Positions 11,699 through 28,103 of a stretch of 46,347 bases of DNA are shown one piece after another. The stretch comes from a virus: positions 1 through 46,347 of the IMG/VR virus record IMGVR_UViG_3300021062_000024; one strand, given 5' to 3'. The translations under genes and the position numbers were made by a program. The notes under the pieces were generated by a model. It saw only the letters and a list, made by a program, of their open reading frames with translations. It did not search any database and was not told the origin of the DNA. Numbering within the stretch: the stretch's first letter is position 1; each line of letters starts with the position of its first letter.

Positions 11699-12364
11699 TC
11701 ATCCCCGTCCTCCCATGTACCGCGATAGCGCGCCTACCAGCGTCACCGGCCTGTTCACCTGCCTCAGGGCGTGGCCGATGCTGGGGACGCTCTCAGCGGG
11801 CTTGTTTGAGGGCTTGGCGGGCGATTTGTCGGCCAGCTTGCGAGCAAGGGCCAGCGCGGTCAGCTCGGCAACCTCAGCAGCGGTGTCCGCCGTGATGCCG
11901 TCGATGGTTTGGGGCGCAGTAGCGCCCTCTGCCGGTGTCTCGGGCGGGCCGAGGTCCATGCCGATCAGCACTGGGTCCCAGCTCAGGCCGTTTCTGAATG
12001 CATCCCACGCGGCCTGACGCTGAGCGACAAGGTCAATGCAGGGCTCAACGGACCTACTGGACCGAACCAAGTCCTGCCTCTCCCCCGCCGCGTCATTGGG
12101 GGCGGGCTTGGCGGGCGGATTGGCTGGAGCTACCGCGTCCGCATCAACTACGGGCCACTCAATGGCCGGACCGAGCGCATAAATCTTGACGGTGCCAGGC
12201 TCGGCGAACGTCACACTCAGGCTGGGTGCAGCGTCATTGACCGCGATGGGGGCGCGAAACCGGCAATAAGCCGCGTGCCCGTACTGCGCAATGTACGACG
12301 CCTGGTGTTCGCAACCAGCGCACCACATGTGTCCGAAAGCTTCTTTCCACTGCTGCTCGCTCAT
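11699..12364 (-). CDS. Hypothetical protein with Cys-His N-terminus
   Basis: 221 residues. The N-terminus has a CAGCEH cluster and further His/Cys residues (HMWCAGCEH, AAYCRF), suggesting metal binding. The middle is Pro/Ala-rich and probably disordered. It carries one copy of the AGTA hairpin repeat (11912-11927), read in frame as EGATAP. The start overlaps the upstream gene by four bases. Function unknown. Confidence 0.7.
   Translation of the reverse strand: MSEQQWKEAFGHMWCAGCEHQASYIAQYGHAAYCRFRAPIAVNDAAPSLSVTFAEPGTVKIYALGPAIEWPVVDADAVAPANPPAKPAPNDAAGERQDLVRSSRSVEPCIDLVAQRQAAWDAFRNGLSWDPVLIGMDLGPPETPAEGATAPQTIDGITADTAAEVAELTALALARKLADKSPAKPSNKPAESVPSIGHALRQVNRPVTLVGALSRYMGGRG
11912..11927. 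repeat. AGTA hairpin repeat, copy 1
   Basis: GGGCGC-AGTA-GCGCCC, a 6-bp perfect stem with an AGTA loop on the plus strand. It is followed by TCTGCCGG, which resembles the flank of copies 5 and 6. It lies inside the gene 11699-12364. Confidence 0.7.
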
Positions 12365-12579
12365 GATGGTAGTCCCTCGCTCTCAAGCCGCTCCAGCGGG
12401 AGCGCGCGCACCTCCCGATCCGAAAGATGCCGGCCCAGCTTGCGGTCATAGACGCGCCAACCAGGACCGCCGTTGAGCGCTTTCGGCACGTAGCGGTCGG
12501 TTTGCATCCGGCCAGTGCTCATCCCGGGACCAAAGTCACCCTTGAGGAACACCGCGCGGAGCTTGTGTTTTATGCTCAT
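12361..12579 (-). CDS. Small basic hypothetical protein
   Basis: 72 residues: MSIKHKLRAVFLKGDFGPGM at the start and RKLGRHLSDREVRALPLERL near the end. The ATG shares its A with the stop codon of the upstream coiled-coil gene (TGATG), and its own stop overlaps the next start (ATGA). No domain is recognised. Confidence 0.65.
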   Translation of the reverse strand: MSIKHKLRAVFLKGDFGPGMSTGRMQTDRYVPKALNGGPGWRVYDRKLGRHLSDREVRALPLERLESEGLPS

Positions 12580-12833
12580 CACTTGCTCTCCAGTTCTGCA
12601 ATGCGGAACTTCAGCCGCCCGATCTCCTGCTGCAGGTCGCGCACCCGTCGCTCGCTGATTTCCAGCAGCGCGGACAGCCGATGAATCTCGTTCGCCTTGT
12701 CGCTGATCTTCTTCTGCTGCCGAAGCCACGTCTTGTTCGGCTCAAAGACGACAGGCTGGACCGGATCGCCGATCACCGCCTCGTACTCCGCCCACAATTG
12801 AGACAACCGGCTCGCATGGTCATGCTCGCTCAT
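12579..12833 (-). CDS. Coiled-coil hypothetical protein
   Basis: 84 residues. The C-terminal 45 residues (ISDKANEIHRLSALLEISER onward) form a clear heptad coiled coil ending in AELESK. The start is the MSEHDH methionine, chosen because it gives an ATGA overlap with the upstream stop. It is likely a dimer; function unknown. Confidence 0.7.
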   Translation of the reverse strand: MSEHDHASRLSQLWAEYEAVIGDPVQPVVFEPNKTWLRQQKKISDKANEIHRLSALLEISERRVRDLQQEIGRLKFRIAELESK

Positions 12834-13024
12834 GGGGTGGGCTCCTTCGGGGGAGAGGGCATCCACTCATCGGGAGTGCTGGGGGCGTTGTACGGAATCG
12901 GGCTCCACCCATAAGGCGAATGCCAGTACGCAGGGTAAGGCGCACAGCGCCTGAACCGGACAGTGACCGTGCGCCCATCCTTCGGCGCCGTCTCGATCGG
13001 CATCCATCCCCTCTGCTCGCTCAT
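12830..13024 (-). CDS. DUF551-like small protein
   Basis: 64 residues, beginning MSEQRGWMPIETAPKDGR. The W-x-P-IETAPKDG signature is widespread in small phage and prophage proteins of the DUF551 type, whose biochemical role is unknown. Trp and Pro are abundant. It overlaps the genes on either side by four bases. Confidence 0.75.
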   Translation of the reverse strand: MSEQRGWMPIETAPKDGRTVTVRFRRCAPYPAYWHSPYGWSPIPYNAPSTPDEWMPSPPKEPTP

Positions 13025-13206
13025 GATGCGTTACCTCCGGTCGCTAGACCCCATACCTCGGCAACAGTGCGGTGGTTGCGGAAGGGGAACCTATCCCGCG
13101 CCGGCCGAGGGCCGCCCTTCCACAGATCGGACCAAAGCTGCTCAGGCATGTCGGATGCCTCGTCGATCCAAATCCAGCCTTCAGGTGGCGCTTGTCGCTC
13201 GGTCAT
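13021..13206 (-). CDS. Small hypothetical protein
   Basis: 61 residues from the MTERQAPPEG methionine, preceded by a GGAGG ribosome-binding site. A longer reading upstream lacks coding character. It contains DEASDMPEQLWSDLWKGG and overlaps the next gene by four bases. It heads the second leftward early block, after a 469-base non-coding stretch. Confidence 0.65.
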   Translation of the reverse strand: MTERQAPPEGWIWIDEASDMPEQLWSDLWKGGPRPARDRFPFRNHRTVAEVWGLATGGNAS

Positions 13207-13675
13207 CCCATCCTCCAGACACACTCCGCCTTCCGCGAAACCTGCCTGCCATCTCTGGCAGGACGCGATGCAGGTCCATGCTCTGCCCACCCAGTACACC
13301 CGCACTGCCCCGCGCTTCTCACGCTCTCGGTGGGCCAGACCGCCTGCCCCTCTCGCAACACACCCGGAGGATTCGGGTAAGCAACATCGGCATTCGTTTG
13401 GTGCGGCTACCTCGGTACGCCATGGCGCGTATCCCAAGCGGTCGGAATCCCTTTCGGGCAAGCTCCCGCCAGGTGCGTCACGGGGTTTCGAATCGGGAAC
13501 CCCGCGAACCGTGAGCCACACATCGAAAGCTTGCGGAGGTCCATACGGTAGCGTATCTTGCTACTACCGCATGCGGCCGTATCGCATGCTCCGGTCAGGA
13601 CTGCGGCTACAGACTGACCATTGCCCCCGCCGGCTAAACCCCGCGCGGGGGCTTTGCTTTTAAGGGCGAACAACA
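13207..13675. other. Non-coding region with several hairpins
   Basis: 469 bases without a convincing gene; a 91-codon minus-strand frame (13407-13682) exists but has poor coding character. It contains a hairpin CGGGGTT/AACCCCG (13481-13504) with a T-arm-like loop, a hairpin GCATGCG/CGCATGC with a 7-base loop (13569-13589), and a terminator at its right end. It probably holds the promoter for the 13206-11148 block. A small RNA or replication origin is possible. Confidence 0.5.
13623..13662. terminator. Probable terminator after helicase-loader gene
   Basis: Stem GCCCCCGC (13623-13630) pairs with GCGGGGGC (13645-13652), followed on the plus strand by TTTGCTTTT. An inner palindrome CCCCGCGCGGGG followed by TTT serves the minus strand. 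It lies 14 bases beyond the stop of the minus-strand gene 13676-14263. It resembles the terminator at 19889-19918. Confidence 0.55.
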
Positions 13676-14263
13676 CTAGCACATCTCCCCGTCGGACGGA
13701 ACCTTGATTTCTGCAGTAAGCCGTTGAATTTGCATATCTAACGCGCGTTTCTGATCGGGCGGAAGCGGTACGGTATTACCGCCCACCGGAGCGCGAGAAA
13801 TCGCCTCAAGCCTGCCCTTCAGGATGTACGCCTTGCGGTAGTCCTCGGGCATCGCAGAGCGGCACGCGGCGAGCAGGTCAGCCGGCTTCGGCAAGAACGT
13901 TGCCGTCTTGATGCACTCGTCCACCCCGGCCGCGATGACAGCCTCGGGGAAGTGGCCGACCACCTGGGCGTAGCTCTCCATCAGGGCTTGCCAGTGCTGC
14001 TCGGGGCGGCGGTCCCAGAAGACGGTGAACAGGCGGCGAAGTTCTTGGCCCAAAGGATCGCGGGGACAAGGTTGTAGCCAACCGTCCAAGCGCCCACTGC
14101 CGCGAACGGCAAGAGCATCGCAAATACGAGCGGCTTCATTCCGCACCGCCTCCGAAACCGAGTTCGGCCTGAACGTCCAGTCCGCGTTGACCACCGCGCG
14201 CAGCTCCGCCGACAAACTGGGAAGCTGCAGCTGCGAGCGGATCAGCGCGACCTTGCGTGTCAT
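13676..14263 (-). CDS. Probable helicase loader-type replication protein
   Basis: 195 residues. The middle reads HWQALMESYAQVVGHFPEAV and DECIKTATFLPKPADLLAAC (about 90-135). This resembles the core of phage helicase-loader proteins (lambda P or G39P-like), which carry a 'tyr/phe-P-x-x-LPKPAEL' segment. It overlaps the initiator-like gene upstream by 128 bases in a different frame, and no later start removes this overlap without losing coding character. It is the last gene before a terminator. Assignment is by motif and position. Confidence 0.6.
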   Translation of the reverse strand: MTRKVALIRSQLQLPSLSAELRAVVNADWTFRPNSVSEAVRNEAARICDALAVRGSGRLDGWLQPCPRDPLGQELRRLFTVFWDRRPEQHWQALMESYAQVVGHFPEAVIAAGVDECIKTATFLPKPADLLAACRSAMPEDYRKAYILKGRLEAISRAPVGGNTVPLPPDQKRALDMQIQRLTAEIKVPSDGEMC

Positions 14264-14549
14264 AGCGCCCCTCTATGAGCTTCACGAATGACGACTGCTG
14301 AAGAAGGAAATCGAAGTCGGCTCGCCAACCCCGATCGTTCCGACCACGGAGGAACGGGCTCGCGCGTACCTTGTCGAGCGCGTACCGCCAGCCGGGCAGG
14401 CCGTTGCCGTCCTTCAACCTGCCCCGCAGCTGCTTAATGCGCTTCGGCGTCATGATGCGGACGGTCGGCAGCCCGCATTCCAGCGCCATGGCGTTGTAGT
14501 CCTCCACCGCCACGGCTTCGGCTTTGGGAAGGGTGTCAGAGAGGGTCAT
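14136..14549 (-). CDS. Replication initiator-like protein, C-terminal type
   Basis: 137 residues. Residues about 32-95 (RIKQLRGRL, LPGWRYALDKVRASPFLRG, GWRADFDFLLQQSSFVKLIEG) match the conserved C-terminal module of many phage replication (primosomal) proteins. The usual N-terminal DNA-binding part is absent, so it is either a short form or works with the HTH proteins upstream. The C-terminal tail is Gly/Ala-rich. The start overlaps the upstream membrane ORF by four bases. Confidence 0.65.
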   Translation of the reverse strand: MTLSDTLPKAEAVAVEDYNAMALECGLPTVRIMTPKRIKQLRGRLKDGNGLPGWRYALDKVRASPFLRGRNDRGWRADFDFLLQQSSFVKLIEGRYDTQGRADPLAAAASQFVGGAARGGQRGLDVQAELGFGGGAE

Positions 14550-14680
14550 CCCCGGCTCTCCGGCGCGAGGGTGTAGGTTGCAAATAGTGCGGCAACGCCC
14601 CAGGCGATAGACTCGGTAGCCAAACCGACCGAAACGCCCACAACGGCCAGCGATATGATGAAGTCCCACTTGAGTCTCAT
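14546..14680 (-). CDS. Tiny membrane protein
   Basis: 44 residues, MRLKWDFIISLAVVGVSVGL at the start, with two hydrophobic stretches separated by a short loop. ATGA overlaps with the genes on both sides support translation. It is one of several tiny membrane proteins in the early leftward operon. Function unknown. Confidence 0.6.
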   Translation of the reverse strand: MRLKWDFIISLAVVGVSVGLATESIAWGVAALFATYTLAPESRG

Positions 14681-14952
14681 CCACCCCTCCCCTTGCTCGC
14701 GCCTTCGTCTCGCCGCGCACATTGTCTGGCTCTGCGCAATGGCACGCCGTAGCGCTTCGCAGCCTTGCTCACGGCCTGCTGGCGGACCTTGAACATGTAG
14801 GCGATGGCTTTCGTAGGCGCGCCCAGGGCGTATGCATCGGCCATCAGCCGCGCCCTCTCGCGCTTCTTCGCCCAGCGCTTGGTCCGCTCGACCATCGCCC
14901 GCACCCGCTCGGCGATCTCCTCCGGTATCTCCATGGGAATGGAGCGGGTCAT
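14677..14952 (-). CDS. Small HTH protein
   Basis: 91 residues, strongly basic. A helix-turn-helix is likely at residues about 45-68 (APTKAIAYMFKVRQQAVSKAAK), preceded by a helical region RVRAMVERTKRWAKKRERAR. It overlaps both neighbours by four bases. It could be a transcription factor or help recognise the replication origin. Confidence 0.65.
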   Translation of the reverse strand: MTRSIPMEIPEEIAERVRAMVERTKRWAKKRERARLMADAYALGAPTKAIAYMFKVRQQAVSKAAKRYGVPLRRARQCARRDEGASKGRGG

Positions 14953-15164
14953 GCGGCACCTCGGATGTCGCGATCAAGCGAAGCCAGCGCCGCACCGTTG
15001 TCACTTACGCCCCTGGGCCGGCCAGCCTTCCGCTGCGCCCAACCGCGGCGCTTGGCCAAAGATCGGATGTAGCCGCTCGTCAGGCCAACATAGTCGGCGA
15101 TCTCTGCCGACTTCACTCCGGTCTCCCACATGCGCCGCACGTTGATCCGCTGTTCACGTGTCAC
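14949..15164 (-). CDS. Small HTH protein (GTG start)
   Basis: 71 residues from a GTG whose last bases overlap the upstream stop (GTGA). The HTH is clear: TREQRINVRRMWETGVKSAE followed by IADYVGLTSGYIRSLAKRRGW, similar to resolvase or GcrA-type N-terminal helices. The tail is basic. An upstream extension to 15257 is less likely. It may be a DNA-binding regulator. Confidence 0.65.
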   Translation of the reverse strand: MTREQRINVRRMWETGVKSAEIADYVGLTSGYIRSLAKRRGWAQRKAGRPRGVSDNGAALASLDRDIRGAA

Positions 15165-15319
15165 TGCCCCGCCCCCGTGTACTCGTGCGCAATGGCGATC
15201 AGATCCTCGAGGCTCATCCGCTCGAATGCGCGGATTGCTTCCTCTTGGCTGCTCCAACGCATCGGCTGTGTGCTCAGCGGAAGCTCCGGCTCGCGCTCTA
15301 TGTCGCGATACGCTGTCAC
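15161..15319 (-). CDS. Small acidic hypothetical protein (GTG start)
   Basis: 52 residues, beginning VTAYRDIEREPELPL. GTGA overlaps occur at both ends, with the methyltransferase stop and with the next HTH gene. The C-terminal half is helical and acidic (SQEEAIRAFERMSLEDLIAI). No family is recognised. Confidence 0.6.
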   Translation of the reverse strand: MTAYRDIEREPELPLSTQPMRWSSQEEAIRAFERMSLEDLIAIAHEYTGAGQ

Positions 15320-16119
15320 TTCCCTTCCTCCGCCAGGACCTTGGGACGGGAGGATGTTGGGTTGCGCGCAGTAGCGCGCTGGAGTTCGTGGCTCATGATG
15401 GCCCTCCCGATGATTTCCGGGATTTGCGGGACGACGGCGTTGCCGAGGCTTCTAAGGCGGTCCACCCTATTGGCAGGCCCATCAGCCATTCTCGGAATGT
15501 CGGCGACCTCACGAGGTCCTGGCGGCCATAGTCCACCAGTTGATCGCAGAGATTCGCGATATGCGGCTTTCCATTGCGGCTGCGGCGAGTGCGGTTCCCG
15601 AGCCCAGATTGCCCCTTGTAGTCGCGCGTCGTGGGGGTATGCCAATATCCAGATACGCTGCCGGTGCTGCGTCGCTCCAATTTCGCCAGCGCCCAGCACG
15701 TGCCATTCCGCATCAAACCCGTGACTGGCCAAGTCGGCGAGCACTCGCCCCATTCCGCGGATAAGGAGGGCTGGCGTGTTCTCCACGATGACGTAGCGGG
15801 GTCGAATCTCGCCAACCAATCGGGCAAACTCACGCCAGAGACCGGATCGGCTCGCGTCAATCCCAGCGCGCTTGCCGGCATTGCTAATATCTTGGCAAGG
15901 GAAGCCGCCGCAGATGACATCCACGGAAATTCCGTCTGCTGCCAGCCGCTCGGCGGTGAGGCTTCGCACGTCGTCATAGCAGGGGACGTGCGGCCAGTGC
16001 TTTCGCAGGACGGCGCGGCAGTAGGGCTCGATTTCACAGAACGCGACGGTTCGCATGCCGGCTCGTTCAAGCCCGAGGCTGAAGCCGCCAATGCCTGAGA
16101 AGAGGTCGAGGACATTCAA
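15316..16119 (-). CDS. DNA cytosine-5 methyltransferase
   Basis: 267 residues from a TTG start (TTGA overlap with the upstream stop). Motif I is DLFSGIGGFSLG (5-16), motif IV GGFPCQDIS (71-79) with the catalytic Cys75, motif VI VENTPAL (112-118), motif VIII QHRQRIWILAYP (151-162) and motif X LGNAVVPQIPEIIG near 230. It methylates cytosine in duplex DNA, probably shielding phage DNA from host restriction or altering regulation. The target site is not predictable. The region between motifs VIII and X is short, so the recognition domain is small. A second frame (15393-16115) also looks family-like. Confidence 0.9.
   Translation of the reverse strand: MNVLDLFSGIGGFSLGLERAGMRTVAFCEIEPYCRAVLRKHWPHVPCYDDVRSLTAERLAADGISVDVICGGFPCQDISNAGKRAGIDASRSGLWREFARLVGEIRPRYVIVENTPALLIRGMGRVLADLASHGFDAEWHVLGAGEIGATQHRQRIWILAYPHDARLQGAIWAREPHSPQPQWKAAYRESLRSTGGLWPPGPREVADIPRMADGPANRVDRLRSLGNAVVPQIPEIIGRAIMSHELQRATARNPTSSRPKVLAEEGK
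15364..15379. repeat. AGTA hairpin repeat, copy 2
   Basis: GCGCGC-AGTA-GCGCGC on the plus strand. It lies in the last codons of the cytosine methyltransferase gene, where the minus strand reads QRATAR. The upstream flank GATGTTGGGTT resembles those of other copies. Confidence 0.75.
15393..16115 (-). CDS. Overlapping frame resembling methyltransferase C-terminal sequences
   Basis: A 240-codon ATG-started frame lying inside the cytosine methyltransferase gene, shifted by one frame. Its second half (LARFDPATSSWRTRQPSL, GECSPTWPVTGLMRNGTC, FREWLMGLPIGWTALEASAT) resembles sequences found in the variable and C-terminal part of phage Dcm-type proteins. It may be truly dual-coding, may come into use through frameshifting, or may be an echo of family-wide mis-framed annotation. 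No separate ribosome-binding site is obvious. Confidence 0.35.
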   Translation of the reverse strand: MSSTSSQALAASASGLNEPACEPSRSVKSSPTAAPSCESTGRTSPAMTTCEASPPSGWQQTEFPWMSSAAASLAKILAMPASALGLTRADPVSGVSLPDWLARFDPATSSWRTRQPSLSAEWGECSPTWPVTGLMRNGTCWALAKLERRSTGSVSGYWHTPTTRDYKGQSGLGNRTRRSRNGKPHIANLCDQLVDYGRQDLVRSPTFREWLMGLPIGWTALEASATPSSRKSRKSSGGPS

Positions 16120-16250
16120 CCGCCTCTCCCGCCCGCGCTACTGCGCGGAACCCTGCTTTCCTTCTCCGGCCTCTTCAGCACCGGGAAGTCTCTCTGTGCC
16201 GTCTCTCGACGGAGCTGGGCTGTGCGCTCGGCCTTGCGAGGGCGGGTCAT
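16116..16250 (-). CDS. Tiny basic hypothetical protein
   Basis: 44 residues, Arg/Lys/Glu-rich (MTRPRKAERTAQLRRET). It is linked by ATGA to the nuclease gene upstream and by TTGA to the methyltransferase start. It contains AGTA hairpin copy 3, read as PRSSAGG. Translation is likely from the coupling; no function can be assigned. Confidence 0.5.
   Translation of the reverse strand: MTRPRKAERTAQLRRETAQRDFPVLKRPEKESRVPRSSAGGRGG
16133..16148. repeat. AGTA hairpin repeat, copy 3
   Basis: CCGCGC-TACT-GCGCGG on the plus strand, so the AGTA loop is on the minus strand. It is inside the tiny gene 16116-16250. Confidence 0.75.
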
Positions 16251-16633
16251 GCAGCCCTCCTGCTGAGAGTGACCTTGGGCACGATCCCCCAGCCGATCAG
16301 CGTCTCTTGCACGTCATCAAGGGAGCGGCAGACGGCAACATGGCAGCCAACTGCGTTTAGCTTGTTGTGGCACAGCCGTTGCGTGATGCCGGGGCCGGCC
16401 TTCTGTGGCGCCTTCAATTCAATCCACAGCACGGCCGGGCCGAGGTTCCACTCGCGCATAATCAGGATGTCCGGCACGCCTGCCTTCAGCCCCATCGCCT
16501 TCAGCTGGGCGCCGCGGATCTTGCCGCCTCCGCCCGCCGGAAATGTGGTCCACCAGCAATCGGCAGGCAGCGCCGCGTCGAGGTACTGCGCAACGGCGCG
16601 GTGCAGGGATTGCTCTGACTGCCGGCGCTTCAT
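16247..16633 (-). CDS. VRR-NUC domain nuclease
   Basis: 128 residues from MKRRQSEQSLH, chosen because it overlaps the upstream stop (ATGA). The VRR-NUC core is visible: FPAGGGGKIRGAQLKAMGLK, AGVPDILI, then AVLWIELKAPQKAGPG with the E-x-K active site, then QRLCHNKLNAVGCHVAVCRSLDD. This is the stand-alone phage form of about 100-130 residues, a PD-(D/E)XK structure-specific nuclease. It may resolve junctions or process replication intermediates. Confidence 0.85.
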   Translation of the reverse strand: MKRRQSEQSLHRAVAQYLDAALPADCWWTTFPAGGGGKIRGAQLKAMGLKAGVPDILIMREWNLGPAVLWIELKAPQKAGPGITQRLCHNKLNAVGCHVAVCRSLDDVQETLIGWGIVPKVTLSRRAA

Positions 16634-17052
16634 GGCGCACCTGTGGAAGTGTTGGCGCCGACCGCCCTGGAGGTGGAAGGACGATCGGCGCCGCTCGCCG
16701 CTGCTGGATTCGGGGTCGGCGGCGAGATGGCGGCGGGACGGCGCTTTCTCAGGCGCTCCATCTCCGCGTAGCTGGTGCCGGGCTGGTAGCAGATGGTGTG
16801 GTGATGGTCGCAATAGCTACAGCCGCCAGTCGTTGGCTTGCCGCAGTACCGGTGGTTCACCTTGTCCTTCCACAGCGGGAAGCGGCATTCGGTGATGTAG
16901 ATGCCGGCGAACTGCGTCGGCATCACCCAGGGCTTGGACAGCTGTGCCTTCTTCCGCGCGACCGTCTGAGAAACGCCAGATGCAATGGCGGCCAGCTGCC
17001 GTTGCGTGCGGCTCTGCCGGTTCTCGAATGGGGGAAGCTGGAAGCCGCTCAT
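16630..17052 (-). CDS. GcrA-like C-terminal domain regulator
   Basis: 140 residues from MSGFQLPPFE (ATGA overlap with the upstream stop). Residues about 50-92 (GIYITECRFPLWKDK, HRYCGKPTTGGCSYCDHHH) match the C-terminal part of GcrA, the alphaproteobacterial cell-cycle regulator that binds sigma70. The motif is C-R-x-P, C-G-x-P, S-Y-C-x-H-H. The canonical N-terminal GcrA HTH is missing; a basic Gln-rich helix stands there instead, and the tail is Pro/Ala/Ser-rich. It may redirect host RNA polymerase (inference) and argues for an alphaproteobacterial host. Confidence 0.7.
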   Translation of the reverse strand: MSGFQLPPFENRQSRTQRQLAAIASGVSQTVARKKAQLSKPWVMPTQFAGIYITECRFPLWKDKVNHRYCGKPTTGGCSYCDHHHTICYQPGTSYAEMERLRKRRPAAISPPTPNPAAASGADRPSTSRAVGANTSTGAP

Positions 17053-17312
17053 GGGATCGCCTTCGTCTTGACAGCCAAGCTCAACGCCACCAGCGGCTCG
17101 GCCTTCGGGCCGACGATTGCCGCAATACGGCCGCGCTCGTAATTCAGGATGCAGCTCGGCGTCGCGCGCCCGCTGTCGTATTCCTCGCGCCATGGCTGAG
17201 CGTCTGCGCCATCGCGAATGCCGGCCAGGAAGGCTGCGACGATCGCCGGCGGCTTGCGGTCGAGCCGAGAGCCGGGGCCGATCAGATTGAACTTGGGCGC
17301 GCTCATCCGCAC
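17049..17312 (-). CDS. Small hypothetical protein
   Basis: 87 residues. KFNLIGPGSRLDRKPPAIVA near the start and YDSGRATPSCILNYERGRIA in the middle suggest a compact mixed fold. It overlaps the neighbouring genes by 4-10 bases. No domain is recognised. Confidence 0.65.
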   Translation of the reverse strand: MRMSAPKFNLIGPGSRLDRKPPAIVAAFLAGIRDGADAQPWREEYDSGRATPSCILNYERGRIAAIVGPKAEPLVALSLAVKTKAIP

Positions 17313-17473
17313 ATCCCCCGCTTGAAGAACATCGCCGCCAGCATCACGGTCAGCGTGATCGGGCTGGTCGCGACGTAGAGCGCAACGGCTCCGAGAAAGA
17401 ACACCCGCAGCAGCAGGCAGGCAGCCTGGCCGGCGTCCCGGAGAGCGGAGAGGCGGCGGGAGAGTTCGGTCAC
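17303..17473 (-). CDS. Small membrane protein (GTG start)
   Basis: 56 residues beginning VTELSRRLSALRDAGQAACL. One strong hydrophobic segment, about residues 18-50, makes one or two membrane passes, with a basic end (FFKRGMCG). The GTG overlaps the upstream stop (GTGA). It is part of a run of tiny membrane proteins. Confidence 0.55.
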   Translation of the reverse strand: MTELSRRLSALRDAGQAACLLLRVFFLGAVALYVATSPITLTVMLAAMFFKRGMCG

Positions 17474-17577
17474 CCGAACACCACCTGGATAGCCATGTAG
17501 ATCAGCGCATAGAACCCAAGGCCAAGAGCAACACAGCCGAGAAGCCCAGGGGTGCGGTGAGGCCAGCGGTCGGTCAT
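17470..17577 (-). CDS. Tiny membrane protein
   Basis: 35 residues: MTDRWPHRTPGLLGCVALGL, then a hydrophobic stretch to VVFG, with one membrane segment. ATGA overlap upstream and GTGA overlap downstream support it as a translated ORF. Function unknown. Confidence 0.5.
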   Translation of the reverse strand: MTDRWPHRTPGLLGCVALGLGFYALIYMAIQVVFG

Positions 17578-17810
17578 GTTGCCTCCCAAGTTTCAACGAT
17601 GGCCTGTGTCTGGTTTGCCTTGATGGGCGCGTTGCTGGTGCCCTTCCCAGGCGGGCGGGCAAATCCCTTGCTCACCATCGGCAGCAGCCGATCCACCACG
17701 GCATCGGCGATCTGCTCTGCAGTCACCGGGTTGTTCGCTTCGGCACAGGCGCGGGCAGCGGCATGCGCGGCGGCGCGGAGCTGATTGTGCGCGGTGGGCT
17801 GGTCGGTCAA
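17574..17810 (-). CDS. Small hypothetical protein
   Basis: 78 residues, Ala-rich and helical. AEQIADAVVDRLLPMVSKGF is a plausible amphipathic helix, followed by a Pro/Gly/Lys-rich linker. It overlaps both neighbours by four bases. No family is recognised. Confidence 0.6.
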   Translation of the reverse strand: MTDQPTAHNQLRAAAHAAARACAEANNPVTAEQIADAVVDRLLPMVSKGFARPPGKGTSNAPIKANQTQAIVETWEAT

Positions 17811-18202
17811 TCTGCGCCCTCCGCTCTCGCCATGCGGCGCATCGCCGCGTCCTGCTCTGGACGGGGAAGGCGCATGAACAGGCTGACCGCTTGATGCATC
17901 GCCCGCTCGAAGGCGGGGTCCATGTTCGATTCCATCGCAGCCAAACGGCGCGCTTCACTCGCCAGCGTCGGGCTGTGCGCCATCAGGCGGAGCAGATGCA
18001 GGCCGCCCGGCGCGTTGACGCCGTAGTACCAATTCTTCGCCGCCTTGATGTTGCTGTTCGCCGCGGCGGCTATACGCTTGATGGCGTTCCGGCCCTGCCC
18101 GAAATCCTTCTGCAGCGCGTCGGCGACCAACAGCGTGTAGCCGTCTTGGTCGAGCGCCATCGCCGGCACATCGCTGTCCATTTTGTCCAGTGAACGCGAC
18201 AT
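17807..18202 (-). CDS. HTH-type phage regulator
   Basis: 131 residues from MSRSLDKMDSD, chosen for its GGAGG ribosome-binding site; a longer start at 18277 lacks one. Residues about 42-75 (AIKRIAAAANSNIKAAKNWY, YGVNAPGGLHLLRLM) form an HTH of the type seen in CII-like or unnamed regulators of alphaproteobacterial prophages. The C-terminal half is helical. An inverted repeat (18211-18231) covers its leader, so it may control itself. Confidence 0.65.
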   Translation of the reverse strand: MSRSLDKMDSDVPAMALDQDGYTLLVADALQKDFGQGRNAIKRIAAAANSNIKAAKNWYYGVNAPGGLHLLRLMAHSPTLASEARRLAAMESNMDPAFERAMHQAVSLFMRLPRPEQDAAMRRMARAEGAD

Positions 18203-18210
18203 CGGTCCTC

Positions 18211-18231
18211 CTGCATGTTCTTGGCATGCAG
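18211..18231. promoter_or_regulatory. Inverted repeat in the leader of the HTH regulator
   Basis: CTGCATG (18211-18217) and CATGCAG (18225-18231) are perfect 7-bp arms with a 7-base spacer, centred 19 bases upstream of the regulator's start codon and next to its GGAGG. It could be an operator or a translational hairpin. Confidence 0.45.
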
Positions 18232-18267
18232 AGGGATCGATCAGTTCAGGAGGTGGAGAACGAAGCT

Positions 18268-18769: not shown

Positions 18770-18797
18770 CTACGCCCCCACCTGATAGGATCGAGCG

Positions 18798-19468: not shown

Positions 19469-19474
19469 ACCGCA

Positions 19475-21365: not shown

Positions 21366-21411
21366 TTCCCCCATCCCCGCGGCGCAGAGCCGCACAGCGG
21401 AGGTAAGAGAG

Positions 21412-21959: not shown

Positions 21960-22306
21960 CCGTGGAGAACGACGCGATGGCAGACACAGCGACGCCGAGG
22001 CCGTGCCCGTTCTGTGGTGAAGGTGAGCCGCATCCGTGGGCGGAGCTGTCGCCAGGCGCCAGCATGGAGGCATACTTTATGTGGTGCGTGAAGTGCAGCG
22101 CCAAGGGGCCGCGCCGCGCCAACCGGCAAGACGCTATCGCCGCCTGGAACCGCCGCGCCCACGACGCCCTGAAGGCGGAGAACGCCAAGCTCCGCGAGGC
22201 GCTGAAACGCTGTGTGGGCGAGCTGGTCTACGCGAAGGAAAAGCTCCCTTGGTCTAACGCAAAGGAAGCTCTCGCCATCGCCCGCGCCACGCTGGAGGGC
22301 CGCTGA
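21956..22306 (+). CDS. Lar-like restriction alleviation protein
   Basis: 116 residues. A zinc-ribbon pattern CPFCGEGEPH ... WCVKCSAKGP ... RQDAIAAWNRRA (about 17-65) is the Lar family signature. A coiled-coil tail follows. Lar from Rac prophage modulates type I restriction; most phage homologues are untested. Together with the phage cytosine methyltransferase it suggests defence against host restriction (inference). Confidence 0.75.
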   Translation: MTVENDAMADTATPRPCPFCGEGEPHPWAELSPGASMEAYFMWCVKCSAKGPRRANRQDAIAAWNRRAHDALKAENAKLREALKRCVGELVYAKEKLPWSNAKEALAIARATLEGR

Positions 22307-22308
22307 GC

Positions 22309-22542
22309 ATGACCGCGAAGCCCATGCAACCGATCTATGTCCTGATCGGCGCGAAGATCGTCCACACCCGCGAGGCCATCGGGTGGACGCAGCAAGACCT
22401 CGCCAAACGGATCGGCCTCACGCGAGCCAGCGTGGCGAACATCGAAACCGGTCGCCAGCGCATCTTGCTTCACGACGTTGAGACGATAGCTCGCGCCTTC
22501 CAAACCACGCCGAAGCATTTCCTGAAGGGCATCTGGACATGA
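22309..22542 (+). CDS. XRE-family HTH regulator
   Basis: 77 residues, nearly all HTH: GAKIVHTREAIGWTQQDLAK followed by RIGLTRASVANIETGRQRI. It resembles a C-type or SinR-like small regulator and probably forms dimers. It begins three bases after the Lar-like gene and overlaps the next by four. It may time later early genes. Confidence 0.8.
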   Translation: MTAKPMQPIYVLIGAKIVHTREAIGWTQQDLAKRIGLTRASVANIETGRQRILLHDVETIARAFQTTPKHFLKGIWT

Positions 22543-22787
22543 CCGTGCTGAACTACGCCACCCGCCGGGAAGACCTGGCCGACGCCACCGACTTCCTGGA
22601 GCACTTCGCGGTCTCCCTGGAGGACAGCATGGGCAGCCTACGGGCCGCACAGCGGGGGTTGGAGTGGGCGACGGGAAGGTCTGATGCCTGCGCCGAGCTG
22701 ATGCGCGAGGCAGAGGCGCTGGCGAAGAAAGCCCGTGGGCTGATGACCTGGGTCGAGCGCGGGTGCAACGAAGGAGAACGGCCATGA
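22539..22787 (+). CDS. Small helical hypothetical protein
   Basis: 82 residues: ATDFLEHFAVSLEDSMGSLR and further helices. It overlaps both neighbours by four bases. No family is recognised. Confidence 0.6.
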   Translation: MTVLNYATRREDLADATDFLEHFAVSLEDSMGSLRAAQRGLEWATGRSDACAELMREAEALAKKARGLMTWVERGCNEGERP

Positions 22788-23149
22788 ATGCGCTGCAGGT
22801 ACTGCGCAAGGCAAGGAAGCTGATCGAGACGCCGGAGCGATGGACCAAGGGCGACGCGGCGAAGGATCGGGATGGCGTGCCGGTTGGGATGAAGTCTCGC
22901 GCGGCGGTCTGCTTCTGCGCGGCCGGGGCTATCGCAAGAGCTAGCGGCGGCTGGAATGGCGGTTACCACAATGCGCGGGCCGCCCTTGAGGTGGCGATTG
23001 GCGGTGCCATCGCCGAGTGGAACGACGCCCCTCGCCGCACGCACGCCCAGGTGCTCCGCGCCTTCGACAAGGCGATCACCTCACTTGAGAAGCCGACTAA
23101 CCCGGAGCCACCCCATGAACGCCATCGTCCCCCTCCCCGCCGTCCGTAA
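22784..23149 (+). CDS. DUF6197-family protein
   Basis: 121 residues from ATG 22784 (ATGA overlap). ALQVLRKARKLIETPERWTK, then VCFCAAGAIARA and EWNDAPRRTHAQVLRAFDKA match the DUF6197 pattern common in actinobacterial and alphaproteobacterial phages. Function unknown. The C-terminal tail is Pro/Arg-rich and overlaps the next gene by 35 bases. Confidence 0.75.
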   Translation: MNALQVLRKARKLIETPERWTKGDAAKDRDGVPVGMKSRAAVCFCAAGAIARASGGWNGGYHNARAALEVAIGGAIAEWNDAPRRTHAQVLRAFDKAITSLEKPTNPEPPHERHRPPPRRP

Positions 23150-23291
23150 GCGGTCCGGCTCCCTGAGCGACGTGCTGCCGATCGCGGAGAACGCGGTCTG
23201 GTGGAGGAATTTTCTTGCCGGTGTGGCCCTGGAGCGGCCCGTCTCCGCAGCGTGGCGGGACGAGGCGGCGGAACTGGAGAGGCTGTCATGA
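23115..23291 (+). CDS. Small hypothetical protein
   Basis: 58 residues: MNAIVPLPAVRKRSGSLSDV, then WWRNFLAGVALERPVSAAWR. The start lies inside the DUF6197 gene; the stop overlaps the next start. No family is recognised. Confidence 0.55.
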   Translation: MNAIVPLPAVRKRSGSLSDVLPIAENAVWWRNFLAGVALERPVSAAWRDEAAELERLS

Positions 23292-23596
23292 GCGCCATTG
23301 AATTTGAAACTGCGCGGGCGATTGCGTTCGCCTACCGCGAGATCGAAACCGCAGAGACACTGCTGGCTGAAATCGCGGAGGCCACGGGGCGACACCCGGC
23401 GCCGGACATCCGCGACGCCTTCGGACGGCAGGTCGGCGGCATGGAACTCGGCGTGCCGTCCGGCTCCAACAGTCGGCGGCTATTCAATGTCCCTTGGGGA
23501 CTCGCGCGCCCCATCATCGAGGCGCATATCGCGCAGCAGAAGGCCGTCATCGCCGCTTTAAGCGAGAAGGCGCGCTCAGAATTGGGTGCGCCATGA
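23288..23596 (+). CDS. Small hypothetical protein
   Basis: 102 residues from ATG 23288 (ATGA overlap). It is helical at both ends, with a Gly/Pro-rich centre GRQVGGMELGVPSGSNSRRL. No family is recognised. Confidence 0.65.
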   Translation: MSAIEFETARAIAFAYREIETAETLLAEIAEATGRHPAPDIRDAFGRQVGGMELGVPSGSNSRRLFNVPWGLARPIIEAHIAQQKAVIAALSEKARSELGAP

Positions 23597-23829
23597 CCGA
23601 GCCGCAGCGCATCGCAGAGGCGCCAGATATGGGGATTGCGCGCAGTAGCGCGCTTCTGCCGGCGACCCTGGAAGACACCGAGGCCGACCTGCAGGCGATC
23701 CACTCCGCGCTTGTCGGCCTGGAAAGCGCGCCGCCGCCCCTGCTCCGCCGCAACGGTGAATGGCTCCGCGAGCTGGCCGATCGGCTTTCGTCTCTCGCGC
23801 TACTCGTTTCCAGCAAGGAGGCCGCTTAA
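23593..23829 (+). CDS. Small hypothetical protein
   Basis: 78 residues. AGTA hairpin copy 5 encodes IARSSALL in its first third. The remainder is helical (DTEADLQAIHSALVGLESAP). Its stop TAA shares bases with the next ATG. Confidence 0.6.
   Translation: MTEPQRIAEAPDMGIARSSALLPATLEDTEADLQAIHSALVGLESAPPPLLRRNGEWLRELADRLSSLALLVSSKEAA
23638..23653. repeat. AGTA hairpin repeat, copy 5
   Basis: GCGCGC-AGTA-GCGCGC, preceded by GGGGATT and followed by TTCTGCCGG, inside the gene 23593-23829. Confidence 0.75.
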
Positions 23830-24503
23830 TGCCGACGCCAAAGGCCGGGTACTTCCTGAAAGATGGGACGAAGGTGCCGGGCACCACCACCATAATTGGC
23901 CGCTTCAAGGACAGCGGCGGGCTGATGTTCTGGGCTTTCCAGCAAGGCAAGCTCGGCAAGGCCAAGCTCTACGATGAAGCGGAGAAGGCCGCCGACATCG
24001 GCACCGCCGCACACGGCATGGTCGAGCTGCGCATCAAGGGCGCAAGCGACGCCGAACTGAATGACTGGCTCGACAAGACCTTACCCGACCCGGAGATGCA
24101 AACCAAAGCCCGGTCGAGCTTCGTTGCCTACCTCAAGTGGGCGGAGATGACCAAGCTCGTGGTGGTCGAGCAGGAAATGCAGCTTGTCTCCGAACAGTAC
24201 CGGTTCGGAGGCACGCCCGACGCCATTGGCATGATTGGCAACGAACTGTGCCTGCTGGATTGGAAGACGAGCAACGGCGTCTATCAGGACTACCTGATCC
24301 AGCTTGCCGCCTACCGGCAGCTTTGGGAGGAGAACCATCCAGACCGGCCGTTGACCGGCGGCTTTCATCTACTGCGGTTCGCCAAGGAGCACGCGGACTT
24401 CGGGCACCACTACTTCGCCAACCTGGACGAAGCGTGGCGCGCGTTCGTGCTGATGCGCGAGCTGTACGACATCGACCGTGGACTGAAAAAGCGCGCAGCC
24501 TAA
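23829..24503 (+). CDS. PD-(D/E)XK exonuclease, RecB/Cas4-like
   Basis: 224 residues. N-terminal VPGTTTIIGRF (16-26) and GTAAHGMVE (58-66) supply the RecB-family His motif. FGGTPDAIG (126-134) carries the first Asp, LLDWKTS (142-148) the D-x-K, and YQDYLIQLAAY (152-162) the Q-x-x-x-Y motif. This is the usual phage early nuclease fold, often paired with a single-strand annealing or binding protein. It is followed after 15 bases by an SSB-like gene, so recombination or DNA-end processing is likely. Confidence 0.85.
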   Translation: MPTPKAGYFLKDGTKVPGTTTIIGRFKDSGGLMFWAFQQGKLGKAKLYDEAEKAADIGTAAHGMVELRIKGASDAELNDWLDKTLPDPEMQTKARSSFVAYLKWAEMTKLVVVEQEMQLVSEQYRFGGTPDAIGMIGNELCLLDWKTSNGVYQDYLIQLAAYRQLWEENHPDRPLTGGFHLLRFAKEHADFGHHYFANLDEAWRAFVLMRELYDIDRGLKKRAA

Positions 24504-24518
24504 AGAGGAGAAAGCACC

Positions 24519-25151
24519 ATGGCACGCACGATGCCCGCCAACACTGGCGGCAATTTCGAACTAGCGCCGAGCGGAACGCATATCGCGATCTGCTATCGCT
24601 TCATCGACCTGGGCACCCAGGAAGGCAGCTACCAGGGCAAGCCCCGCAAGGCGCACAAGGTGATGATCACCTGGGAGCTATGCGGCGACGAGAAGATGGA
24701 GGACGGCCGCCCCTTCTCCATCAGCAAGACCTACACGCTGTCCAGCCACGAGAAAGCCGGACTGCGGAAGGACCTGGAGGCGTGGCGCGGCGCCAAATTC
24801 ACGGATGACGAAATCGCCCGCTTCGACCTGTCCACCCTCATGGGCAAGCCGTGTCTGCTCAATGTGGTGCACAACGAGAATGGCGACCGCACCTATGCGA
24901 ACGTCGCCGGCATTATGCGGCTGCCGAAGGGCTCCGCGGCCCCGCAGCGGGTGAACGAGACGATCTTCTTTGACCTGGACGAACGGCCGTTCAACGCCGA
25001 GCTGTTCAACAAGCTGGGCGAGCGGTTGCGCGAGACCATCGCCAAGTCGCCCGAGTACGCGGCGGCTCACGGCCAGCACACCGAAGCCCACCCGCCGCCG
25101 CATGATGGCAGCGGCATGCCCGACCCGGCAGACGATCCATTCGGGCTGTAG
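24519..25151 (+). CDS. Probable ssDNA-binding protein
   Basis: 210 residues. The N-terminal two thirds are beta-rich, with GTHIAICYRFIDLGTQEGSY and AHKVMITWELCGDE, an OB-fold-like pattern of phage DUF669-type proteins. The last residues (DPADDPFGL) are acidic with a terminal Phe, like the protein-binding tails of SSBs. It has a strong AGAGGAGAAAG ribosome-binding site and follows the exonuclease. Function inferred from pattern and neighbour. Confidence 0.7.
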   Translation: MARTMPANTGGNFELAPSGTHIAICYRFIDLGTQEGSYQGKPRKAHKVMITWELCGDEKMEDGRPFSISKTYTLSSHEKAGLRKDLEAWRGAKFTDDEIARFDLSTLMGKPCLLNVVHNENGDRTYANVAGIMRLPKGSAAPQRVNETIFFDLDERPFNAELFNKLGERLRETIAKSPEYAAAHGQHTEAHPPPHDGSGMPDPADDPFGL

Positions 25152-25153
25152 CC

Positions 25154-25513
25154 GTGATAGGCCCCGCCCCACTCCGCAAGCGCATGGGGGTGAAGCAGTC
25201 CAGCTTCATCCGCTCGGCGAGCCATAAGGCATTCATCCGCCGGCAGCAATGCGTGTGCGCGGCGTTCAACCACCCGAAGTACCCCTGTGGTGGGCCGAAG
25301 GTCGCGGCGCACTTCAGGACTGCGACGGGTGGCGGGATGGGCTTGAAGCCGGCGGATCAGTTCATCTTTTGCGTATGCGACGCGCACCATCGTCTACAGC
25401 ACCAGGTGGGCGAAGCGGAGTTCCAGAAGATGTTCGGACTCAATCTCCGCATCATCTGCCGGGACTTCGCTCGGCGCTCCCCCGATCAACGCATCAGAGA
25501 GGCAGCACAATGA
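25154..25513 (+). CDS. Ref/DUF968-like HNH nuclease
   Basis: 119 residues from a GTG start three bases after the SSB-like stop. SHKAFIRRQQCVCAAFNHPK, VAAHFRTATGGGMGLKPADQ and CDAHHRLQHQVGE match the Ref/DUF968 pattern (RxxHxxF, C..C, AAH...GMGxKPxD, CxxHHxxxH). Ref of phage P1 is a RecA-dependent nuclease. It probably takes part in recombination. Confidence 0.75.
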   Translation: MIGPAPLRKRMGVKQSSFIRSASHKAFIRRQQCVCAAFNHPKYPCGGPKVAAHFRTATGGGMGLKPADQFIFCVCDAHHRLQHQVGEAEFQKMFGLNLRIICRDFARRSPDQRIREAAQ

Positions 25514-25740
25514 GTGTACGTGCAGTCTGCCGCAAGGGCGACATCCGAATCGGCATGATCGGCATGGAGCCGGGCAACATCGAGCGCCTGACCGAGCGTG
25601 GCAAGCCATTCATCCTGCGCCTCGACATGTTCCGCGACTGTCAGGACGTGGTGTTGGTCTACGGCAAGGACCACGCCGACATCATGCAGAAGATGGCGCT
25701 GTTCAACAACGAACCGGGCGCGGAGATCGACTGGCTATGA
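25510..25740 (+). CDS. Small hypothetical protein
   Basis: 76 residues, mixed alpha/beta (MSVRAVCRKGDIRIGMIGME). ATGA overlaps on both sides. No family is recognised. Confidence 0.65.
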   Translation: MSVRAVCRKGDIRIGMIGMEPGNIERLTERGKPFILRLDMFRDCQDVVLVYGKDHADIMQKMALFNNEPGAEIDWL

Positions 25741-26258
25741 ACGCGATAGCCGCCACCTTCCACAGCTTCCGCACCGTCGCCGGCCGGAAGCAAATCCAGT
25801 TGGTGTTCGAGGCGCCGGTCGAGCAGACGGGCAAGATCCTCGACCTGCTCGGCACGCCAGACCCAGGCGGCAGCAAGTGGGTCGGCATCGCACCGCTACA
25901 GCTGGACAAGGTGACGGAACAGAAGCCCGAGGCTCCGGCGGAGCGCGCTACTGCGCGCAAAAAGGAATCCGAACCCTGGCACACCCTGAAGCTCTCCAAG
26001 CGAGCCGCGATCATGTGCGGAGAGCCGATGTTCTGGGAGTGGGCAAACGCTCAGGAAGCAAAGCGGCTCGGGCAAGAGAACTGCATTCAGATTGACGACG
26101 CCGAGAAGGCGGCAATGTGGCTCCGGTGGCGGACCAACGTGAAGTCCCGCAAGGAGTACGACACCGACGAAGCCGCTGGCCGGAGATACCTGGAGATCGA
26201 GAGGTCTTACCGGGCTCACCGGATGGAAGTCGAGCGCTACGGGGAAGTGTCATCATGA
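25737..26258 (+). CDS. Hypothetical protein
   Basis: 173 residues. A beta-rich N-terminus (QIQLVFEAPVEQTGKILDLL) is followed by a linker with AGTA hairpin copy 6 (ERATARKKES) and a helical C-terminus containing MFWEWANAQEAKRLG and WLRWRTNVKSRKEYD. The latter looks like the C-terminal part of phage replication or recombination accessory proteins. Function unknown. Confidence 0.65.
   Translation: MNAIAATFHSFRTVAGRKQIQLVFEAPVEQTGKILDLLGTPDPGGSKWVGIAPLQLDKVTEQKPEAPAERATARKKESEPWHTLKLSKRAAIMCGEPMFWEWANAQEAKRLGQENCIQIDDAEKAAMWLRWRTNVKSRKEYDTDEAAGRRYLEIERSYRAHRMEVERYGEVSS
25943..25958. repeat. AGTA hairpin repeat, copy 6
   Basis: GCGCGC-TACT-GCGCGC on the plus strand; AGTA loop on the minus strand. 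It sits in the linker between two domains of the gene 25737-26258. Confidence 0.75.
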
Positions 26259-26473
26259 GCCGTCGCCGCCGCGAGCTGATCGCCGCCAAGCGGGCGGGCA
26301 CAGTCCTAGACCCGGCCGCATCGTTCACCGAATGCCTAGCCTGCAACGGCACTGGCACGCGCGACTGGCTTTCTGGCGCGCCCTGCATGCAGTGCATCAA
26401 CGGCTGGGTGATGGGCGAAGACCCTGACGACCTCCCCGACTGGGGCGATCCGGAGGATGACGATGGCGAGTGA
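26255..26473 (+). CDS. Small DnaJ-type zinc-finger protein
   Basis: 72 residues. CLACNGTGTRDWLSGAPCMQC gives the CxxCxGxG...CxxC pattern of DnaJ-like zinc fingers. The tail is very acidic (DPDDLPDWGDPEDDD). The start overlaps the previous stop. Function unknown. Confidence 0.7.
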   Translation: MSRRRRELIAAKRAGTVLDPAASFTECLACNGTGTRDWLSGAPCMQCINGWVMGEDPDDLPDWGDPEDDDGE

Positions 26474-26804
26474 GATAGAGGCGCTGATCGAACGGCTGGA
26501 GAAGGCGACGGGGCCGGATCGCGCCCTCGACAAGGCGGTTGACCCGCTTCTTCGCAAGCGCGCGATGTATGAGCTGGACGACCAGGAGCCAGAGTACACC
26601 GCCGACCTGATGCTTGCCCGAGACTGCGCCGGCAAAGAATGGCTGGAGCAGTGGACGCTGGCTCGCGCGCGTGCCGGCTTCTATGAACTCGGCACCCGCC
26701 GTTATCGCGGTATGGCTTTCGACGACATCATCGTCAAGGGCTATCACGAGCCCTGTTTATGGCTTGCGGTTGCCCTCCGCGCCCGCGCCACCCAGGAGAA
26801 GTGA
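26463..26804 (+). CDS. Small hypothetical protein
   Basis: 113 residues from the second ATG (26463), which has GGAGG at the right distance. It is helical and acidic at the N-terminus (SEIEALIERLEKATGPDRAL). It resembles many phage proteins of this start pattern, without known function. Confidence 0.65.
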   Translation: MASEIEALIERLEKATGPDRALDKAVDPLLRKRAMYELDDQEPEYTADLMLARDCAGKEWLEQWTLARARAGFYELGTRRYRGMAFDDIIVKGYHEPCLWLAVALRARATQEK

Positions 26805-26805
26805 G

Positions 26806-27204
26806 ATGGACCCAGCAGCACCGCAGGAGATGACGGCGGTTCGCATCATCGAGCACAAGGAAGCGCTGGAGATCGCGCAACGGCTGATCAACTCGGCATT
26901 CGGCAACGACAACCGGGCGCGCTTCAGCATTCCGTGTCGGCCGCACCATGACGATGACTGCCTGATCATGGCCTACATCGCACAGCGGGAGATGGAGCGT
27001 AACCGTCTCACCGCCGCCGAGACCGCCCGCGCCGCAGCGGAGGCGGAAGCGGCGAGGCTGCGGGCTGCGCTGAACTTGCACGCGCCGGCCTGCCACATCT
27101 GCAGCACGCGCAGTCGGGTGCATTCGGCATTTTGTAGCGCCGTAGGTGACCCGGCAGACCGCGCGCTTGCAGCCCTCACCAAGGAGCCGAGCCATGGGAA
27201 GTGA
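26806..27204 (+). CDS. Hypothetical protein with His/Cys cluster
   Basis: 132 residues from MDPAAPQEMT. Helical, with a coiled coil (AAETARAAAEAEAARLRAAL) and a possible metal site HAPACHICSTRSRVHSAFC near the end. No family is recognised. Confidence 0.65.
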   Translation: MDPAAPQEMTAVRIIEHKEALEIAQRLINSAFGNDNRARFSIPCRPHHDDDCLIMAYIAQREMERNRLTAAETARAAAEAEAARLRAALNLHAPACHICSTRSRVHSAFCSAVGDPADRALAALTKEPSHGK

Positions 27205-27508
27205 CGCCATGACCCAGGACACCGAGTGGGCGCGCGAGCAGGCGGAGAGGCTGGCCAATGATCTGGCCTACGCACTTCGCAAGAACAGCCTCGTGTACGC
27301 CGCAATCAAGAACATCGAAACCGCCCTCCTCGCCGCCGAGCAGCGGGGGAGAGAGGCGGAGCGGGCAAAATTCGAGGAGCTTGCCGAGGCTGCGACCGTT
27401 TGCACGCTGCTGACCACCTTCGCTCCGTTCATGGACCTGAAGGAAGGCAAGCGCTTGATTGATGCGCTGGTTGCGGTCGGCAAGCTGAAGAAGGATACCC
27501 GGCCATGA
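27194..27508 (+). CDS. Small helical hypothetical protein
   Basis: 104 residues from ATG 27194, with AAGGAG upstream; ATG 27209 is an alternative. Mainly helical (EWAREQAERLANDLAYALRK). It overlaps the next gene by four bases. Confidence 0.6.
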   Translation: MGSDAMTQDTEWAREQAERLANDLAYALRKNSLVYAAIKNIETALLAAEQRGREAERAKFEELAEAATVCTLLTTFAPFMDLKEGKRLIDALVAVGKLKKDTRP

Positions 27509-27771
27509 CGCCCGACGAGCTGAAGGCCGCGCTGGTCGAGGCGGTCGCACGACGCCGCGCCGCGCGTGCCTTGGGAGGGGCAATGACGCGACGACTAAAG
27601 ACTGGGAATTTGCTGATTGAAGCGGAAGCCGCTCAGCGCTGCGATCTCTGCGGCGCAGTGGCCGAAACACGCCCCTACGGTCCAAGGGGCGAGAACGTCT
27701 GCTTCTCGTGCGGCATGAAGGACCGGGCTGCCGCTGAGCGCGCATTCAAGCAGCGGATGGACCCAACATGA
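27505..27771 (+). CDS. Small zinc-ribbon protein
   Basis: 88 residues. AAQRCDLCGAVAET and ENVCFSCGMKDRA form a CxxC...CxxC ribbon in the second half; the first half is a basic helix. ATGA overlaps on both sides. Function unknown. Confidence 0.65.
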   Translation: MTPDELKAALVEAVARRRAARALGGAMTRRLKTGNLLIEAEAAQRCDLCGAVAETRPYGPRGENVCFSCGMKDRAAAERAFKQRMDPT

Positions 27772-28067
27772 CCGACCTCGAAACCACGCTCTCCGCAATC
27801 ACGCGCATGGCGGAGGAGGTGAAGGATGATCAGCGATTCATCAAAGCTGGAGCCACCCTCGTTCCCGGAGGGCTCGAATCAATTTTGGCGGCTGGCGCTC
27901 GGCAACAGACCGCCGCCCCCGCTCTCGCCGACGCCGTGCTGGCGCTGGTCGAGGTGGCGAGGGCTGCGGAGGCCGACAGGCAATTTGCCAAGAAATATTG
28001 GGGCGAAAGGCTGGAAGTTACCGACGCCCTCTCCCGCCTCTCCACGCTGAAGGAGACGAGGGGGTGA
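27768..28067 (+). CDS. Small helical hypothetical protein
   Basis: 99 residues, Ala/Glu-rich helices (DAVLALVEVARAAEADRQFA). It follows the zinc-ribbon gene by ATGA overlap. No family is recognised. Confidence 0.6.
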   Translation: MTDLETTLSAITRMAEEVKDDQRFIKAGATLVPGGLESILAAGARQQTAAPALADAVLALVEVARAAEADRQFAKKYWGERLEVTDALSRLSTLKETRG

Positions 28068-28087
28068 CAGAGAAGATGGATTCTGTT

Positions 28088-28103
28088 TCGCGCAGTAGCG
28101 CGA
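28088..28103. repeat. AGTA hairpin repeat, copy 7
   Basis: TCGCGC-AGTA-GCGCGA followed by CGACCGG, in the intergenic gap 28068-28124. The downstream flank is the same as copy 4. Confidence 0.75.

Follow-up and report, generated by a model that had tools for sequence, protein, structure and literature searches.

A REP-like hairpin element at gene borders in the mosaic early region of a tailed phage and its possible role in gene exchange

Introduction

How single genes are cleanly swapped at gene borders in tailed phages is an old question. T4-type phages reportedly carry mobile regulatory cassettes, termed PeSL, in which stem-loops are combined with an early promoter (Arbiol et al. 2010, cited in PMC4177764). 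In cluster K mycobacteriophages, ESAS/SAS repeats have been described (PMC3203893). Members of the CGTC-tagged REP superfamily, which include RPE-4 and RPE-6 of Rickettsia, are present in alphaproteobacteria (Di Nocera et al. 2013, PMC3733652). These elements have an unpaired CGTC (TGTC/CCTC) tag at one end, a stem of 8–9 bp starting with A-T pairs, a loop of 4–5 bases and a CCA-fitting tail after the stem, and they are multi-copy in bacterial chromosomes (PMC3733652). GTAG REPs and REPINs, on the other hand, go together with RAYT (Y1) transposases (PMC2817692, PMC3116915).

Here we analyse a hairpin element in the IMG/VR record IMGVR_UViG_3300021062_000024 (46,347 bp; the whole stretch is called the window below). 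A preliminary description had listed seven copies of a palindrome NCGCGC-AGTA-GCGCGN and compared it with small mobile palindromes of the REP/RPE type. Two features are new here: inverted pairs of copies bracket single genes, and copies coincide with mosaic breakpoints.

Results

By its portal, terminase and capsid families, the window belongs to a tailed phage. The nearest annotated phages are distant, with matches of 33–36% for the portal (Rhizobium and Paracoccus phages included) and at most 49% for the terminase. A direct terminal repeat of 149 bp (positions 1–149 and 46199–46347, 99% identity) is either a terminal redundancy or an assembly overlap of a circular map. The element was found in three contigs only, two of them nearly identical: the window, G001 (IMGVR_UViG_3300020202_000190) and G002 (IMGVR_UViG_3300020202_000165), the latter being 99.95% identical to window positions 17791–46347. 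Chimeric assembly of the window is thought unlikely, as G002 has four of the copies together with the sequence around them. G001 is a relative of the window phage with an integrase; in G001 (L231) 11067–12301 a tyrosine integrase and an HTH/excisionase-like gene adjoin a tRNA-like attP. An integrase was not found in the window, including the place that matches the integrase locus of G001, which looks like a loss or gain of temperate functions. In a search of alphaproteobacteria only, the tRNA-like stretch beside this integrase of G001 was matched to tRNA regions at up to 94%, which suggests an alphaproteobacterial host.

All seven copies of the preliminary description are present in the window (Table 1), each with a perfect 6-bp stem and a 4-base loop (AGTA, once GGTA), and in both orientations. 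Six of them follow NCGCGC-RGTA-GCGCGN; copy 1 departs from it by a compensatory change of the second stem pair. The flanks are conserved in part: most copies have TT just ahead of the stem, GG[AG]TT is found there in four of seven, and five have CCGG no more than about 9 nt past the stem. RGTA loops with a perfect stem of at least 5 bp occur in the window exactly these seven times, and every stem is exactly 6 bp long.

Table 1. Positions of the hairpin copies and of associated genes in the window.
Feature	Position	Strand	Sequence	Context
Copy 1	11912–11927	+	GGGCGC AGTA GCGCCC	TACT in the sense of minus-strand ORF 11699–12364, peptide EGATAP
Copy 8 (degenerate, tentative)	12049–12064	-	CGGTCC AGTA GGTCCG	One T-T mismatch; GGTT before; peptide VRSSRS
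C5-cytosine DNA methyltransferase gene	15316–16119	-		PF00145, E 1.8e-43; between inverted copies 3 and 2
Copy 2	15364–15379	+	GCGCGC AGTA GCGCGC	TACT in minus-strand sense, C-terminal extension of the methyltransferase ORF (MSHELQRATARNP)
Copy 3	16133–16148	-	CCGCGC AGTA GCGCGG	13 nt before the methyltransferase gene begins; GGGAGAGG follows
Copy 4	21427–21442	+	TCGCGC GGTA GCGCGA	Codons 6–10 of small ORF 21412–21612 (SRGSATTG); same in G002
Copy 5	23638–23653	+	GCGCGC AGTA GCGCGC	In small ORF 23593–23829, close to its N-terminus (ARSSAL); same in G002
Exonuclease gene (phrog_298)	23760–24503			
Copy 6	25943–25958	-	GCGCGC AGTA GCGCGC	TACT in the sense of ORF 25737–26258 (ERATARK); same in G002
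Copy 7	28088–28103	+	TCGCGC AGTA GCGCGA	21 nt upstream of ORF 28125–28397
Gene in the slot of the G001 radical-SAM cassette	28125–28397	+		Comparison with G001

The possibility that the motif is no more common than chance, raised in the preliminary description, found no support. Simulations of the same composition gave 0.07 perfect-stem RGTA hairpins at order 1 (maximum 1) and 0.14 at order 3 (maximum 2), against seven observed. Under a looser criterion (14-mer, two mismatches) the excess is smaller, 7 versus 2.07, and 3 of 100 shuffles reach seven. The number of hairpin-core repeats is highest in the window (6, next best 4) among about 170 contig pieces of at least 10 kb, most of which are shorter than the window. 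Confinement to the early region was confirmed: all seven copies fall within 10.0–29.2 kb (P about 0.002 under random placement, for a region picked afterwards), in the stretch that separates the packaging genes from the structural block (early region, 11.9–28.1 kb).

The count of seven holds for perfect copies. Copy 8, detected with a covariance model, is probably a further, degenerate one (17.5 bits, E 0.0013 in the window; next background 13.3 bits). We treat copy 8 as tentative because chance scores in whole bacterial genomes reach 18–22 bits with this model. Six copies had been placed inside genes and one between genes. In-frame copies within ORFs are indeed present, but several copies lie at gene junctions instead of in a gene body, and the supposedly intergenic copy 7 is located, in G001, at the C-terminal end of the reading frame that precedes it. 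The coding copies are all in one codon phase, at offset 0 in AGTA sense (four, including the eighth) and at offset 2 in TACT sense (three), which is one codon block read from opposite strands; with the closed phase taken into account, we put the chance of this at roughly 1 in 200.

Eleven distinct copies from the three contigs align without gaps over the hairpin. All 66 of 66 stem cells are paired, both partners have changed in four of the six stem pairs, and the covariation score was reached by none of 500 shuffles. The outer pair is GC, TA or CG and the second pair CG or GC; in place of CGCGC, the G002 element has CGGCC and copy 1 has GGCGC, the partner matching each time. Meanwhile the loop stays AGTA (one GGTA), the TT flank is kept, and the encoded peptides differ among copies (RSSA, SASRP, RATAR, GATAP). 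Because stems stay paired and the loop is fixed while the peptides change with the stem, the conserved object is the hairpin and not the peptide. The covariation supports selection, short of proof, given that the copies are few and related and that palindromes could also stay perfect through template-switch correction.

Two unrelated genes are bracketed by inverted copies with the same polarity. In the window this is the methyltransferase gene, with the AGTA copy (copy 3) before its start and the TACT copy (copy 2) at its end; homology to relatives stops near residue 245. In G001 it is a radical-SAM gene (phrog_9298) between copies at 28425–28440 and 27351–27366, where the AGTA copy ends 13 nt before the start and the TACT copy lies at most 18 nt after the stop. 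Both downstream copies have the 18-bp inner flank ATGAGCCACGAACTCCAG in common, and copy 2 shares a 38-bp island with G001 27347–27384. Flanking inverted repeats beyond control were found in 0 of 77 methyltransferase relatives. Longer intervals between copies, e.g. from 23638 to 25943, bracket no single gene.

The copy 7 element is also present upstream of the radical-SAM gene in G001. Outside the left-hand copy of G001 the sequence equals window 28025–28114, and homology ends 11 bp past copy 7; outside the right-hand copy, homology to window 28376–28427 begins at the palindrome edge. Between these homologies the window has a different gene (Table 1) and lacks the right-hand copy. At this one site, the same element is followed by different genes in related phages. 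Where the window has copy 3, another element (TCGGCC AGTA GGCCGA) is present in G002, with divergence starting 12–16 bp before the hairpin; this contig stops 20 bp beyond the element, and the downstream gene falls outside it. Next to this site, an island of 69 bp (16160–16228) is identical in the window and G002. We read 16.2–17.8 kb of the window as a recently replaced stretch, because positions 16229–17790 are only 75–81% identical to G002 while the rest of the common sequence is 99.95% identical.

Copy 1 lies in a 31-bp island that is 100% identical to G001 1369–1399. The island is the element itself, with little homology immediately around it, although the C-terminal part of the surrounding ORF is homologous. 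Copy 6 is situated within a variable-length linker of its ORF, and among the relatives L192, L150 and L055 the linker length at this place differs. Mosaic breakpoints are also present at hairpin-free gene starts (ATGAGCGAGCAG-type start islands common to G001 and the window). Gene-start islands of 97–100% identity connect window 12819–13089 with G001 (L230) 492–1018 (CCCCGAAGGAGCCCACCCCATGAGCGAGCATGAC; GGAGGTAACGCATCATGAGCGAGCAG), the genes being otherwise different; to judge from the alignments, these are start-associated linkers in a hypermosaic region.

A search for the consensus in related phages and alphaproteobacterial genomes had been proposed. It found the element in G001 and G002, but not in the genomes searched. 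Flank-bearing patterns in virus contigs gave only these two contigs besides the window, plus single-copy chance loci. The exact 14-mer core matches about 120 loci in virus contigs, nearly all with unrelated flanks, and these matches were judged to be chance. Among them, L080, L101/L119 and L126 reached higher model scores, but these loci had been preselected for the core and are left out of the copy count. In L048 the core occurs twice, yet as part of a large inverted repeat with unrelated flanks (11650–11915, small spacer, the 14-mer hairpin on both arms). A scan of bacterial genomes returned 99 hits, none a perfect palindrome with the flanks of the element. In 385 alphaproteobacterial genomes there was at most one match each, the best with 29.7 bits (among 15 candidates scored per genome) versus 38–48 bits here. 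BLAST against phage and plasmid records gave no significant match, and relatives of the methyltransferase, RNA ligase, radical-SAM protein and terminase had no copies above background. A Y1 transposase (PF01797; IS200-type) is absent from the three contigs, while control genomes gave matches. Empty sites with a target duplication were not found either.

Discussion

With a probability of roughly one half, we regard the element as a phage-borne, DNA-level REP-like hairpin module, located where exchangeable segments end within a hypermosaic early region. The module would consist of a perfect hairpin of about 16 bp and a partly conserved, oriented flank of 10–20 bp, in one lineage of probable alphaproteobacterial phages. 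Its clearest form would be two inverted copies around one gene, the AGTA copy before the ribosome-binding site and the TACT copy at the gene end, with the same slot taken by different genes in different phages. The hairpin presumably spreads or is exchanged as DNA, and in-frame copies within ORFs would be tolerated insertions. One route would be recombination through the elements as short shared ends, for which the recombination of the phage itself, with its encoded exonuclease, might suffice. A second route would involve a trans-acting enzyme that recognises the hairpin; no gene found supports this route (no Y1 transposase, and no integrase in the window). Mobility, like any such enzyme, is inferred, and the module marks, and may promote, gene exchange.

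Several observations count against the DNA module. The single codon phase of the coding copies is not required of free insertion. The breakpoint evidence consists of few events, because there are only three contigs and two are nearly identical. Empty sites with a target duplication were not seen, the three contigs lack a Y1 transposase, and no integrase was found in the window. Moreover, the longer intervals between copies are not single-gene brackets, and breakpoints also fall at gene starts that have no hairpin.

Covarying stems around an unchanging loop of four bases are typically seen in RNA ligands, and a hairpin of early transcripts, bound by a phage or host protein for translation control, antitermination or RNA processing, is a possible if less probable explanation. 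Predicted RNA hairpins of the seven perfect copies have -9.3 to -12.3 kcal/mol, and four 5′ copies (window 16133 and 28088, G001 28425, G002 37904) end 3–9 nt ahead of a GGAG motif, so that copies before the Shine-Dalgarno sequence would set expression of the next gene. However, about half of the copies are reversed relative to the gene (loop UACU, not AGUA) and some lie deep in ORFs. There was no Rfam match above the gathering score, and membership in an Rfam family was rejected. Intrinsic termination was likewise rejected, since the terminator list (GC hairpins followed by a T run) includes none of the copies. We favour DNA over sense RNA because both orientations occur.

Perfect pairing can arise through template switching without selection. 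The copies might accordingly be passive linkers, i.e. short common junction sequences without a function of their own that are kept palindromic by template-switch correction of quasi-palindromes, and other short islands at gene starts of the same region agree with this. We consider such an origin unlikely, as it leaves unexplained the fixed AGTA loop, the TT flank, the constant 6-bp stem, the multiplicity and the inverted bracketing with constant polarity. A double-stranded DNA site, bound as a palindrome by a phage regulator or a nucleoid or partition protein in a stoperator-like manner, would fit multiple dispersed palindromes of the early region only, but is improbable given that stem letters vary with pairing kept and the asymmetric unpaired centre is best conserved (the reverse of a dimer site), that copies are intragenic and that one site was swapped along with its gene.

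To return to the DNA module, a stronger version of it would make the hairpins the recognised ends of single-gene phage cassettes, with an enzyme acting on the AGTA-loop hairpin (single strand or cruciform) that moves or swaps the gene. We give this version little chance. If true, it would be a phage counterpart of attC-type cassette exchange, which has not been described before. Since a defined hairpin marks swap borders, brackets two unrelated genes alike, and is followed by different content in near-identical phages, it could be tested what part a specific sequence plays in mosaicism.

Comparison with known systems

The element is similar to PeSL in being a stem-loop module upstream of genes and at gene junctions in a hyperplastic phage region with gene shuffling, and stem-loops do lie here at junctions of exchanged phage genes. 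Unlike PeSL, no sigma-70-like promoter was found in a search for sigma-70-like sites at 11500–29000, and the element also occurs as inverted pairs and as intragenic copies. ESAS/SAS are likewise repeated motifs with inverted repeats beside translation starts of some phage genes (PMC3203893). ESAS, however, have imperfect arms of 17 bp and a variable spacer, and RNA pairing is unsupported (PMC3203893), whereas the element, with its perfect, covarying 6-bp stems, is found in either orientation and within ORFs and at gene ends as well.

The anatomy fits the proposed REP/RPE type of palindrome (a short hairpin with asymmetric flanks, found in either orientation, with in-frame copies inside genes and with islands of identity amid otherwise unrelated sequence), but the defining tags of both described REP superfamilies are lacking (PMC3733652). 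With CGTC REPs the element shares a short hairpin with a 4-base loop (four in all copies), oriented flanks, inverted pairs, in-frame intragenic copies, a probable alphaproteobacterial setting and the lack of a known dedicated transposase (PMC3733652). In contrast to them, its stem has 6 bp instead of 8–9 and no A-T pairs at the base, and a free CGTC tag is missing. CGTC is present on the TACT strand only in T-A type copies (21427, 28088, G001 28425, G002 37904), where its TC is within the stem. As for a CCA tail, several copies have a loose AAYCC-like tail on the TACT strand. Furthermore, the element is phage-borne, has few copies and brackets swapped genes. GTAG REPs and REPINs are also small palindromes, often in oppositely oriented pairs; the element differs by having GTAG only across loop and stem instead of as a tag at one end, and by the lack of a linked Y1 transposase within the three contigs. 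Hence, the element resembles the REP, RPE and PeSL types but is a member of none, and it would represent REP-like decoration, in-frame intragenic copies included, in a phage instead of a chromosome.
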